Shown here piece after piece: positions 17,308 to 22,242 of a stretch of 44,200 nt of DNA. Every line of letters starts with the position of its first letter. Position 1 is the first letter of the stretch. The notes under the pieces are model-generated. The model did not search any database, was not told the origin of the DNA, and saw only the letters and a program-made list of their open reading frames with translations. This DNA comes from SAR86 cluster bacterium SAR86A (GTDB lineage: Bacteria > Pseudomonadota > Gammaproteobacteria > Magnimaribacterales > D2472), in the NCBI GenBank assembly GCA_000252525.1, contig JH611156.1:664909-709108 (forward strand), written 5' to 3'. Position numbers and translations under genes: made by a program.

Positions 17308-19788
17308 ATGAATAGTTTTAATAATATTAGGTCATATATTGCAAACTTCATTACCTTATCTGTATTAATTTTCAGTTTCGGATTGAATGCTTATCCAGAG
17401 ATGATGCCTGAAAATGAAAATGAAGTTGAAGAAAATGCCTCAGAACAACCAAAAATGCCCAAAGGGCCAATGTCAAAAAAGAAAGAGTATAAAACTATAG
17501 ATGAGTTTCTTGAAGACGGAGAATACAAATCTATAGATGGCTTCATGAATATATTGCATGAAACAGAAAAAGATAAATATTTTATGATATTGAATGACGA
17601 TCAACTCAATAAAGAATTCATTTACTTTACTTACATTCTAAACGGTCCTTCAGATGCTGGTCCAAGTGGAGGAGATATGGGTGAAGCATTTATTCTTGAG
17701 TTCAGGAAATTTAAGGAAGATATCGGTATATACAAAAAAAATACAAAGTTCGCATTTGATGATTCAAACAAAATATCTCAATCAAAATTGACGAATATTA
17801 TTGAGGCATTTTTAGGAAGATTCTCTGTCATAGTTAAAGAAGATTCCAGATACGTAATTAACATAGATAAGATGTTTCTGAGTGAAATGTTAGTTGCTAT
17901 TACGCCTAATATTCCAAAAGAATACATGGAATATTATAATCTGATACTTGGTAGGCCTGATTCGTCAAAAACATTCATTGATGAAGTAAGAAGCTACGAA
18001 AAAAATACTTCATTTAAAGTTAGGTATGGTTTTTACAATCCTAAACCAAAGTCTGGTAGATCAATTGATGCTATAACAGATAAAAGATATACATTTGTAG
18101 ATGGATTGCATTTATTTGTAGAGATGCCTGACGATAAGTTTGAGCCTAGAATTGCTGATCAAAGAATTGGATATTTTTCTGAAAAAGTTACAGATCTTTC
18201 AACCTACGATTCCAATAACGCTAGGGACCTTATAAATAGATGGAGATTAGTCAAAAAAGATCCTGATGCAGAGTTATCTGAGCCTGAACAGCCTTTAGTA
18301 TATTGGGTTGAAAATTCAACACCAGAAGAAATACGTCCGTTTGTTGTAAAAGGTATCGAAGCATGGAATAAAGCTTTTGAAAAAGCAGGTTTTAAGAATG
18401 CAATTGTTGCAAAAATTCAACCTGACGATGCCGAATGGGATGCAGGCGACGTAAGATATAACGTTGTAAGATGGGCTTCAACACCCTCACCTAGATATTC
18501 TGGATATGGCCCTAGTGTGGCAAATCCAAGGACTGGTGAAATTATAGCTGCAGATATTGTTCAAGAATTCAATGCGATTAAAAGGGGTTATACATACAGA
18601 AAATTGTGGGGATATACTGAAGAAAATGATCCTCTTGAGCAATGGATAGTATCACTAACAATGCATGAGGTTGGTCATACTTTAGGCTTAAGACATAACT
18701 TTAAATCAAGTTGGGTTTATGATGCTAAAGAAGTGCATGATGTATCTATTACTGGCGATAATCATATTGGCTCTGTAATGGACTATGACCCAATTAATTT
18801 AGCACCAGAAGGAATACCACAGGGTAATTTCTTTCCAACTGGTCCAGGATTTTATGATATCTGGGCAATTGAATTCGGTTATACCCCAAGCTTCACTGAT
18901 GAGGAACGTGAAAACCTTCTTTCAAAATCGACTCAGCCAGAATATATATTTGGAACTGATGGAGATGCAATGTCATCGCCAGGTGTAAATATTGATCCAA
19001 GAAACTACAGAGGTGATATGTCTAATGACCCTATTACATATACCTCTGACAGAATAAAAACTTTAAATGCAAAAATTGCTGAACTTCCAGAAATTTTTCT
19101 TACTGATGGAGAAACTTCTACAGAGTTCAGATCAAATTTTTATAGGCTTACAACTGAAAAAGGAAGGTTCCTTGATGGAGTTTCAAGGTTAATTGGTGGA
19201 GTTTACTCTAATAGAATTGTTAATGATCCAGACATCGACATGACTCCATTTGAAGCGGTTCCTTATGAAGATCAAAAAAGGGCCATGAGTTTAATTAAAG
19301 AACAGCTTTTATCAAATGATGCCTTCTCGTTTGATGAAAAATTACTTAAATATCTTCAAAGTGAAAAACGAGCTGCATATAGTCCTAGAAGAGGTGGAAA
19401 TGAAGATCCACAGCTGCATGATTTAGTTCTTGGCCTTCAAGGAAGAGCAATTGCACACATACTCCATCCAGTAGTAATGAAGAGACTAGTCGACAGTTCA
19501 CAATATGGTAACACTTATATGCCAGATGAAGTTCTATCTGACCTTTTCAGTGCTATCTTTGTTCAAAGAGAAATGCCAACTACATTTAAAATGAACCTAC
19601 AATCAAAATATGTTGATAGTCTAATAAGTGCATTAGATGATGACAGCTATGATGAAATATCTAAGTCTGCGATTTATGCATCTTTAGTTGATATAAAGGA
19701 TTTTACTAGGATTCCATATGGCGACTCCAAGACTAAAGTTCACTATAGATTTTTAAATTGGAAAGCAACAAAAGCTTTAGAAAATTAG
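17308..19788 (+). CDS. Secreted zinc metalloprotease, DUF5117/DUF4953 type
   Basis: 826 residues with an N-terminal signal sequence (hydrophobic about 10-30, ending near LNAYP) and an acidic/Met-Pro-rich linker. The zinc site HEVGHTLGLRH (His453, Glu454, His457, His463), followed by a Met-turn-like SVMDY, places it with the metzincin-like zinc-dependent proteases whose flanking regions are called DUF5117 and DUF4953. Such proteins are periplasmic or secreted, common in Bacteroidota and marine gammaproteobacteria, and of unknown physiological substrate. AAAGGA lies about 10 bases before the ATG. Its end overlaps the convergent MGMT-like gene by four bases. Confidence 0.9.
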   Translation: MNSFNNIRSYIANFITLSVLIFSFGLNAYPEMMPENENEVEENASEQPKMPKGPMSKKKEYKTIDEFLEDGEYKSIDGFMNILHETEKDKYFMILNDDQLNKEFIYFTYILNGPSDAGPSGGDMGEAFILEFRKFKEDIGIYKKNTKFAFDDSNKISQSKLTNIIEAFLGRFSVIVKEDSRYVINIDKMFLSEMLVAITPNIPKEYMEYYNLILGRPDSSKTFIDEVRSYEKNTSFKVRYGFYNPKPKSGRSIDAITDKRYTFVDGLHLFVEMPDDKFEPRIADQRIGYFSEKVTDLSTYDSNNARDLINRWRLVKKDPDAELSEPEQPLVYWVENSTPEEIRPFVVKGIEAWNKAFEKAGFKNAIVAKIQPDDAEWDAGDVRYNVVRWASTPSPRYSGYGPSVANPRTGEIIAADIVQEFNAIKRGYTYRKLWGYTEENDPLEQWIVSLTMHEVGHTLGLRHNFKSSWVYDAKEVHDVSITGDNHIGSVMDYDPINLAPEGIPQGNFFPTGPGFYDIWAIEFGYTPSFTDEERENLLSKSTQPEYIFGTDGDAMSSPGVNIDPRNYRGDMSNDPITYTSDRIKTLNAKIAELPEIFLTDGETSTEFRSNFYRLTTEKGRFLDGVSRLIGGVYSNRIVNDPDIDMTPFEAVPYEDQKRAMSLIKEQLLSNDAFSFDEKLLKYLQSEKRAAYSPRRGGNEDPQLHDLVLGLQGRAIAHILHPVVMKRLVDSSQYGNTYMPDEVLSDLFSAIFVQREMPTTFKMNLQSKYVDSLISALDDDSYDEISKSAIYASLVDIKDFTRIPYGDSKTKVHYRFLNWKATKALEN

Positions 19789-20051: not shown

Positions 20052-21302
20052 TTATTTAATTGAAGTAATCACTTTAGTTATTTTATTTAGTGCCCAATCA
20101 ATATCTTTTTTTCCAATCATCAGTGGAGGAGCAAATCTAATTACTGTCTCATGTGTCTCTTTACACAGAAGCCCCTCATTTAATAACATCATGCAAAGAT
20201 TTTTAGCACTAACTTCTGCATTATTGAGCTCCATGCCTATCCAAAGTCCTTTTCCTCTGACTTCTTTAATTATTTTCGAATCAATATCTTTGAGCTTCGA
20301 TAAAAAATAGTCACCCATAGTTTTGCTATTTTCAATCAATTTTTCCTCAAATAATAAATCCAAAGCTTTTGAAGCTACTTTTGACGCGAGAGGATTTCCA
20401 CCAAATGTTGACCCATGAGATCCAGGTTTAAAATGATTCATTATTTCTTTTGAACTTAAAAAAGCTGAAATTGGTAAAAGAGCTCCACCCAATGCTTTAC
20501 CAAGAATAAGGCCATCAGGCTTAATGTTTTCATGCTCATAAGCAAAAAGTTTTCCAGTTCTTCCCAACCCTGATTGAATTTCATCTAATATCAGAAGGAT
20601 ATTTTTTTCTGTACACAATGCTCTTAACTCTTTTAGCCATCCTTCTCTGGGAACCCGTATTCCTGCTTCACCTTGGATCGGTTCAACTAAAATTGCACAT
20701 GTATTTTCATTAATTTTTTTTTCAAAAGTATTGATCGACAAACACTTCTCAATAGAGTCACACTCACAGGAGCCACAGAAATTTGCAGCATCAAAGCCTG
20801 GAGTAAATGGTCCAAAACCTTTTTTATATGCATCATCTGTTGAAAAGCTAACAATGGTCGTTGTTCTTCCATGAAAGTTTCCATCTGCAACTATAATTTC
20901 TGCTTTATCCTCAGGGATTCCCTTTGAAAAATATCCCCACCTTCTCGCAGCTTTTATAGCTGTTTCAACTGCCTCTGCTCCAGTATTCATTGTTAATACT
21001 GATTCAAATCCTGACAGATTTGATAATTTTTCTAAAAAATCTGCAAAAGGTTCTGTATAAAATGCTCTCGATGTAATTGATAGTTTTTTTGATTGTTCAT
21101 GAATAACTTCAATTAATTTTGGATGAGAATGTCCATGACTGACTGCTGAGTATGCAGAAACCATATCAAGATATTTATTACCATCTACATCCCAAAGATA
21201 TGCTCCCTCTCCTTTGTTGAGCACCACAGATAATGGAGAATAATTTTTAGCACCATATAAGGATTCTTTTTTAATATATTCGTCTTGTAAACTTGATGGC
21301 AT
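20052..21302 (-). CDS. rocD: Ornithine aminotransferase with a cysteine-rich insertion
   Basis: PLP-dependent class III aminotransferase, 416 residues, converting ornithine and 2-oxoglutarate to glutamate-5-semialdehyde and glutamate. The cofactor region includes NTGAEAVETAIK, the PLP aspartate in LILDEIQSGLGRTG, Lys269 in LGKALGG, and GSHGSTFGGNPLAS. After GPFTPGF, where known enzymes have a short connecting loop, this protein has an extra stretch of about ten residues with Cys176-x2-Cys179-x-Cys181-x5-Cys187, which could bind a metal. It is divergent from the ctlX-like gene across only 43 bases, consistent with a citrulline/ornithine degradation pair. Other omega-aminotransferases are possible, but ornithine fits best. 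Confidence 0.88.
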   Translation of the reverse strand: MPSSLQDEYIKKESLYGAKNYSPLSVVLNKGEGAYLWDVDGNKYLDMVSAYSAVSHGHSHPKLIEVIHEQSKKLSITSRAFYTEPFADFLEKLSNLSGFESVLTMNTGAEAVETAIKAARRWGYFSKGIPEDKAEIIVADGNFHGRTTTIVSFSTDDAYKKGFGPFTPGFDAANFCGSCECDSIEKCLSINTFEKKINENTCAILVEPIQGEAGIRVPREGWLKELRALCTEKNILLILDEIQSGLGRTGKLFAYEHENIKPDGLILGKALGGALLPISAFLSSKEIMNHFKPGSHGSTFGGNPLASKVASKALDLLFEEKLIENSKTMGDYFLSKLKDIDSKIIKEVRGKGLWIGMELNNAEVSAKNLCMMLLNEGLLCKETHETVIRFAPPLMIGKKDIDWALNKITKVITSIK

Positions 21303-21345: not shown

Positions 21346-22242
21346 ATGTCTAAACAATCAACTTCACATTTATTTATGATTGAGCCTGAATCTTTTTATT
21401 CAAATGAACAAACTTCATATACCAATCACTATCAAGAAGATGCTTCAAATGAAGATATAGCAGATATAACAAAAAAAGCACTTGTTGAATTTCATAACTT
21501 AAAAGACAAAATTGAAGCCAAAGGAATTCAGGTAACAAGCTTAAAAGGCTCAAAAGAATGTCCCGATCACATATTTCCAAATTGGTTTATGACATTCGAT
21601 AACAAAACAATGCAGATTTTTAGCATGTTGGCTCCAAACAGAAGAAAGGAAAAGAAATTATCAATGATTGAACATTTATCTGAAACATATGAATTGACTG
21701 CAGACTTTTCATATCTTGAAAACAAAGAAATATTTCTTGAGTCAACAAGCAGTATGGTTTTTGACAGAGTTAATAGGATTGTCTATGCAGGAATATCACC
21801 AAGAACAAATGCTGTTCAATTAATTATATGGTGTAGAAACAATGATTTTGAACTAGTGTTATTTGAAACAGAAAGTCATACTGGCTCGCCTATATATCAT
21901 ACTGATGTATTAATGTACGTTGGAACAGATATCATTGGCATATGTTTTGATGTAATCAAAGAGGAGCATGTAGATTACGTTAGAGAAAAAGTAAATGCTC
22001 ATCATGATGTTGTTGAGCTTACTTCTGAGCAAATTCAAAACTTTTCAGGTAACGCGATTGAAGCAAAAAATGAAGCAGGAGAACTTTTCTTGATTATTTC
22101 ATCCAGAGGATTCAATGCATTGAATGATGATCAGGTAAATAAGCTTTTAAAAAGTTACAAAGAAATTATCCATTCAGATATTCCTACCATTGAAAAATAT
22201 GGTGGAGGATCTGCTCGATGTATGTTAACTGAACTATTTTAA
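21346..22242 (+). CDS. ctlX: Citrulline hydrolase/arginine deiminase-like protein (CtlX family)
   Basis: 298 residues of the guanidino-group-modifying amidinotransferase/deiminase superfamily, CtlX branch (COG4874). Family signs are FPNWFMTFDN, SMVFDRVNRIVYAGISPRT, catalytic His185 in IYHTDVLMYVG and catalytic Cys292 in GGGSARCMLTE close to the C-terminus. The Francisella member hydrolyses citrulline to ornithine, CO2 and ammonia. Placement beside rocD supports a route citrulline to ornithine to glutamate semialdehyde; the exact substrate here is inferred. AAGGA lies about seven bases before the ATG. Confidence 0.85.
   Translation: MSKQSTSHLFMIEPESFYSNEQTSYTNHYQEDASNEDIADITKKALVEFHNLKDKIEAKGIQVTSLKGSKECPDHIFPNWFMTFDNKTMQIFSMLAPNRRKEKKLSMIEHLSETYELTADFSYLENKEIFLESTSSMVFDRVNRIVYAGISPRTNAVQLIIWCRNNDFELVLFETESHTGSPIYHTDVLMYVGTDIIGICFDVIKEEHVDYVREKVNAHHDVVELTSEQIQNFSGNAIEAKNEAGELFLIISSRGFNALNDDQVNKLLKSYKEIIHSDIPTIEKYGGGSARCMLTELF

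Follow-up and report, generated by a model that had tools for sequence, protein, structure and literature searches.

A conserved four-cysteine insert in the ornithine aminotransferase of SAR86 bacteria, a candidate metal-binding or thiol site

Introduction

Ornithine aminotransferase (OAT) is a textbook-conserved enzyme and SAR86 is an abundant uncultured group of surface-ocean bacteria. In a stretch of DNA of 44,200 nucleotides from SAR86 cluster bacterium SAR86A (contig JH611156.1; this whole stretch is referred to here as the window), the OAT gene encodes four closely packed cysteines in a lengthened loop, which raises the question of whether these cysteines form a maintained site and, if so, what that site may do. 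Our literature search for SAR86 and ornithine aminotransferase found no paper bearing on the insert, and the four-cysteine loop, as an added metal-binding or thiol site, seems to be undescribed.

Results

Identity of the enzyme and position of the insert

We found that the window gene is a true ornithine aminotransferase of a SAR86 bacterium. Its product scored 520.4 bits against TIGR01885, above the curated cut-off of 378.4, and matched PF00202 at 1.3e-128. The AlphaFold2 model m268c170fda59 (mean pLDDT 92.8) superposes as a whole on OATs, which were also its best PDB matches, with RocD 3ruy as the top Foldseek match (TM 0.92/0.98). The nearest solved relatives were RocD 3ruy and 5viu, the latter being a PDB entry deposited as acetylornithine aminotransferase, with human OAT next. 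Identity to RocD and human OAT (3ruy, 1oat) was 45–49%, and the window OAT has in common with them the family (TIGR01885), the fold (TM 0.92–0.98), the catalytic Lys, Arg and Glu and the ornithine-binding Tyr. On alignment, Lys292, Arg180, Glu235, Tyr55, Tyr85 and Thr322 of human OAT correspond to Lys269, Arg146, Glu212, Tyr21, Tyr51 and Thr299 of the window OAT, of which Lys269, Arg146, Glu212 and Thr299 were invariant across 79 aligned sequences. As the catalytic and ornithine-site residues all match those of human OAT, the window enzyme is predicted to be catalytically ordinary, with its catalytic site intact.

The gene and the parts of its product which are discussed here are as follows:

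20052–21302, minus strand: rocD, ornithine aminotransferase, 416 aa, PLP fold type I, class III (TIGR01885, PF00202, Foldseek)
20784–20795, minus strand: strand 170–173, which runs into the cysteine loop (AlphaFold2 model m268c170fda59)
20739–20777, minus strand: cysteine insert, residues 176–188 (CGSCECDSIEKCL), replacing a single residue at human Asn210 (alignments of solved OATs and of SAR86 and outgroup OATs)
20775–20777, minus strand: Cys176 (C1), invariant in four-cysteine orthologues and also retained in the two-cysteine lineage
20766–20768, minus strand: Cys179 (C2), at +3 or +4 from C1, retained in every four-cysteine orthologue
20760–20762, minus strand: Cys181 (C3), always at C2+2
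20742–20744, minus strand: Cys187 (C4), at C3+4, +5 or +6
20715–20741, minus strand: helix 188–196 behind the cysteine loop, corresponding to helix 8 of human OAT (dimer-dimer contact at Glu216/Arg217; model, human OAT alignment, PMC5432616)

A sequence-only reading of this DNA had placed the four cysteines at 20742–20777, in a loop about ten residues longer than that of the human enzyme and outside the usual aminotransferase fold. These coordinates are exact in the 416-aa ORF, where the motif is Cys176-x2-Cys179-x-Cys181-x5-Cys187 and the loop is bounded by GPFTPGF (164–170) and EPIQGEAG (207–214). The interval from PGF to EPIQGE is 36 residues in the window OAT and 25 in the human enzyme, so the loop has gained 11 residues net (12 relative to Bacillus RocD), and the insert sits at Asn210 in human numbering, between Tyr209 and Asp211. 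The view that it lies outside the usual fold was also borne out, with none of the aligned solved OAT members, RocD and human OAT included, having a four-cysteine insert of 11–12 residues where the PGF strand leads to helix 8. The loop was modelled as coil between strand 170–173 and helix 188–196, with pLDDT of 78–83 over this block. We rejected the idea that the insert is homologous to a known metal or iron-sulfur motif, as an insert profile searched against PDB sequences matched no solved chain at E ≤ 10.

Conservation of the cysteines

We compared the window OAT to 30 distinct four-cysteine orthologues, with about 65–87% identity to the window protein. All four cysteines were retained in 30/30, and the free variation among close orthologues which would speak against a site was not seen. 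The spacing of the cysteines fell into three classes, 3-1-3 (n = 17), 2-1-5 (n = 9, the type of the window OAT) and 2-1-4 (n = 4). Both TGT and TGC were in use at every cysteine codon position, and by parsimony on the tree the four codons have undergone at least 22 synonymous changes and 0 replacement changes. The other loop columns (n = 8) had 9.1 residue changes each vs 2.66 per column in the remainder of the protein, i.e. the non-cysteine loop positions evolve 3.4 times faster. The four cysteines are the most constrained residues within a fast-changing loop: they are strictly retained by purifying selection and the remaining loop varies freely. Invariant cysteines whose spacing shifts on an otherwise drifting loop form the pattern which would be expected of a ligand cage or a disulfide knot, and not of drift.

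Chance clustering of the cysteines was ruled out by shuffling together with this codon-level conservation. When the 8 cysteines of the window OAT were shuffled, 4 fell within 12 residues at P ~ 0.004, and among the 29 window ORFs of at least 150 aa no other had more than 2 cysteines in any 12-residue stretch; the conservation is far stronger evidence against chance than the shuffling. Assembly error as the source of the insert was rejected because it is present in dozens of independent genomes, some of them named SAR86 records.

Distribution and origin within SAR86

A full-length close relative of the window OAT (E ≤ 1e-120) was found in 67 of the 202 genomes of the order which were searched, and in a contig scan named SAR86 cluster records matched it at up to 87% identity. 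Alignments of the SAR86 orthologues contained three loop states: four cysteines, two cysteines (C-W-S/T-x-C) and insert-free. On a tree of 85 proteins, built after removal of the loop columns, these states are explained by only two changes: the insert was gained a single time, within SAR86, and it was shortened once in the window's genus.

The region profile scored 97–110 bits for insert-bearing SAR86 members and ≤ 51 for all else (samples of 369 genomes from the class and 398 from the phylum). No four-cysteine insert was found outside SAR86 at the aligned best-scoring loci of these samples, viral contigs gave no strong match, and the non-SAR86 matches aligned from a single contig scan carried no insert. 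It should be noted that phyla beyond Pseudomonadota were sampled through that one contig scan, and absence elsewhere is shown to that extent. The insert was rejected as a general feature of OAT/ArgD, with none outside SAR86 among those examined.

In 15 of the 24 distinct orthologues of the window's genus the loop is shortened to C-W-S/T-x-C. The expectation that all four cysteines would be conserved among orthologues therefore held for the four-cysteine sequences but not for this sister subclade of the same genus, which has only two. Both of its cysteines are invariant, with at least 6 synonymous and 0 replacement changes, and C2 (Cys179) is probably the counterpart of the second of them (+4). 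The two-cysteine loop rules out an intrasubunit four-cysteine site in that lineage, so the first pair must either serve a purpose by itself or link subunits.

Several individual sequences were also worthy of note. In the two-cysteine lineage (e.g. L010–L025) a Trp always follows the first cysteine, with no Trp codon change in 15 sequences. Three genomes (L027, L028 and L053; family f4, genus g6) have a four-cysteine OAT at the same kind of ctlX-rocD locus and other members of the genus are insert-free, which suggests gene replacement or exchange inside SAR86. One contig named Flavobacteriaceae bacterium NAT175 (L080; PAHL01000001.1, 1976–3211) carries a SAR86 two-cysteine OAT with a divergent ctlX-like gene and groups among the SAR86 rows on the OAT tree; this contig is probably mis-binned.

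Genomic neighbourhood

The rocD gene has a divergent neighbour:

21346–22242, plus strand: CtlX/DDAH-like hydrolase (PF19420, 1.1e-68; NF046062 CtlX, 284.7 bits, below the 334 cut-off)

CtlX is a putative citrullinase thought to yield ornithine (PMC9007349), and so the pair may channel citrulline, or a compound like it, towards glutamate semialdehyde, the ctlX-like gene probably being the ornithine-producing partner of rocD. As it falls below the CtlX cut-off its substrate is uncertain, and citrulline and a methylated or other guanidino compound are the candidates. Its product reads FPNW and HTD; the CtlX paper (PMC9007349) gives FPNN and HTN. A ctlX-like gene adjoined rocD at every SAR86 locus examined, and none adjoined OAT at the outgroup loci within the sequence available around each. 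A tie between the insert and this neighbour was rejected, as the pairing occurs with 0-, 2- and 4-cysteine OATs alike. Elsewhere in the window, 17308–19788 (plus strand) encodes an 826-aa protein with the zinc-protease motif HEVGHTLGLRH and zero cysteines, for which NCBIfam gave no match.

Discussion

We give a probability of roughly 0.52 to the reading that the insert is a lineage-specific intrasubunit four-thiolate metal knuckle, likely for structural zinc and less likely for a [2Fe-2S] cluster, which braces a tetramer contact. Within a single subunit, the cysteines of the motif C-x(2-3)-C-x-C-x(3-5)-C would wrap one metal and so fix the 11–12-residue surface loop which connects a large-domain edge strand to the helix that makes the dimer-dimer contact in human OAT. 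The knuckle would brace that corner, favouring or tuning the tetramer and its stability, and would take no part in transamination. Four conserved potential thiolate ligands in one compact loop, as are looked for in a four-cysteine structural zinc site, were present in all 30 four-cysteine orthologues. We infer from these sequence patterns that a metal is bound, which metal it is and how it acts on assembly, and it should be noted that zinc, a [2Fe-2S] cluster and a dithiol would not be separable from sequence alone.

The idea that the cysteines might add redox or metal control to the enzyme needs to be modified with regard to what would be controlled. In human OAT, Glu216 and Arg217 of helix 8 are the main dimer-dimer contact and hot spot, distant from PLP (PMC5432616), and the R217A variant is dimeric and fully active (PMC5432616; PMC13327489). 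Because the insert, by alignment, adjoins this dimer-dimer helix far from PLP, it is more likely to influence the assembly or stability of the enzyme than to control catalysis directly. The position of helix 8 in the human enzyme is what points to assembly or stability here: the case for a tetramer contact extrapolates from human OAT, and the SAR86 loop is placed beside it by alignment.

The best parallel for the SAR86 insert, by analogy, is the four-cysteine zinc loop of alcohol and xylitol dehydrogenases. There the structural zinc is held by Cys97/100/103/111 at a tetramer contact, and Cys-to-Ser mutants lose both the tetramer and thermostability (PMC9895041). In both cases a metabolic enzyme carries four cysteines in a single short loop which protrudes and is present in some lineages only (PMC9895041), but the folds are unrelated, the dehydrogenase spacing is 2-2-7 vs 2-1-5, 2-1-4 or 3-1-3 in SAR86, and zinc is proven for the dehydrogenase and proposed for SAR86. 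With regard to a cluster, some bacterial ferrochelatases have a lineage-specific internal insertion carrying [2Fe-2S] cysteine ligands, CXC forms included; like the SAR86 insert it is lineage-restricted and has close cysteines, and the enzyme works without them elsewhere (PMC8529089). However, the ferrochelatase insertion is 22–34 residues long and belongs to an unrelated enzyme, and its cluster is confirmed, whereas that of SAR86 is a candidate.

The strongest point against a simple intrasubunit four-cysteine site is the pair of cysteines which persists in the shortened lineage, and two other readings accommodate it. One, the foremost competitor of the metal knuckle but in our view rather unlikely, is a dithiol redox switch. 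Here a C1-C2 disulfide, joined in the long form by C3-C4, would lock or release the loop by the dimer-dimer helix, so that the enzyme would sense oxidation in partnership with thioredoxin or glutathione. The shortened lineage retains exactly one neighbouring pair, both invariant, as would be expected if pairs work alone. The same enzyme in Plasmodium falciparum has cysteine-dependent redox control: it is a thioredoxin target whose activity rose by 75% with wild-type Trx (PMC2660430), and its solved structure, 3ntj, is entitled 'Redox regulation of Plasmodium falciparum ornithine delta-aminotransferase'. However, Plasmodium OAT has no insert at this site (its solved chain has 78 residues where the window has 89), a cluster of four cysteines which includes a fixed C-x-C is more often a set of ligands than a disulfide switch, and the cytosol would be an unusual place for stable disulfides.

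The other reading places the metal between subunits, with cysteine pairs from two subunits holding one zinc or [2Fe-2S] cluster across the dimer-dimer axis in the manner of mammalian GABA aminotransferase. The cluster ligands of that enzyme are a CxxC from each subunit in the PLP-phosphate loop, and would not fall at the position of the SAR86 insert. Mammalian GABA aminotransferase is, like OAT, a class III PLP enzyme, and has a cluster at the centre of the homodimer, between subunits near PLP, which the E. coli enzyme lacks (PMC8439235). A bridging site would cover both the four-cysteine and the two-cysteine forms, since two thiolates per subunit are available in the latter, and the insert abuts the helix that packs on its partner in human OAT; the four-cysteine form, however, already has enough ligands inside one subunit, and we consider such an arrangement improbable. 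That the insert has no function, its cysteines persisting through recent common descent, is very improbable: a single origin does mean that presence within the clade is partly inheritance, but this does not fit with cysteine codons which have changed silently at least 22 times and never by replacement, next to loop positions which outpace the protein average.

Returning to the intrasubunit metal knuckle, we tentatively suggest, at somewhat less than even odds, that in SAR86 OAT a PLP enzyme has taken on a new, metalloprotein form, in which a four-thiolate zinc or [2Fe-2S] knuckle beside the dimer-dimer helix would make quaternary structure depend on metal or redox state, and the two-cysteine form would be a natural intermediate showing how such a site is disassembled. 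SAR86 OAT is a variant of a known enzyme in which the constraint on the cysteines is well supported and the function is proposed. If the site binds metal, SAR86 would tie its use of ornithine and citrulline to metal or redox state, and the 0-, 2- and 4-cysteine forms of orthologous genes within one order provide a natural series for what such a site adds.
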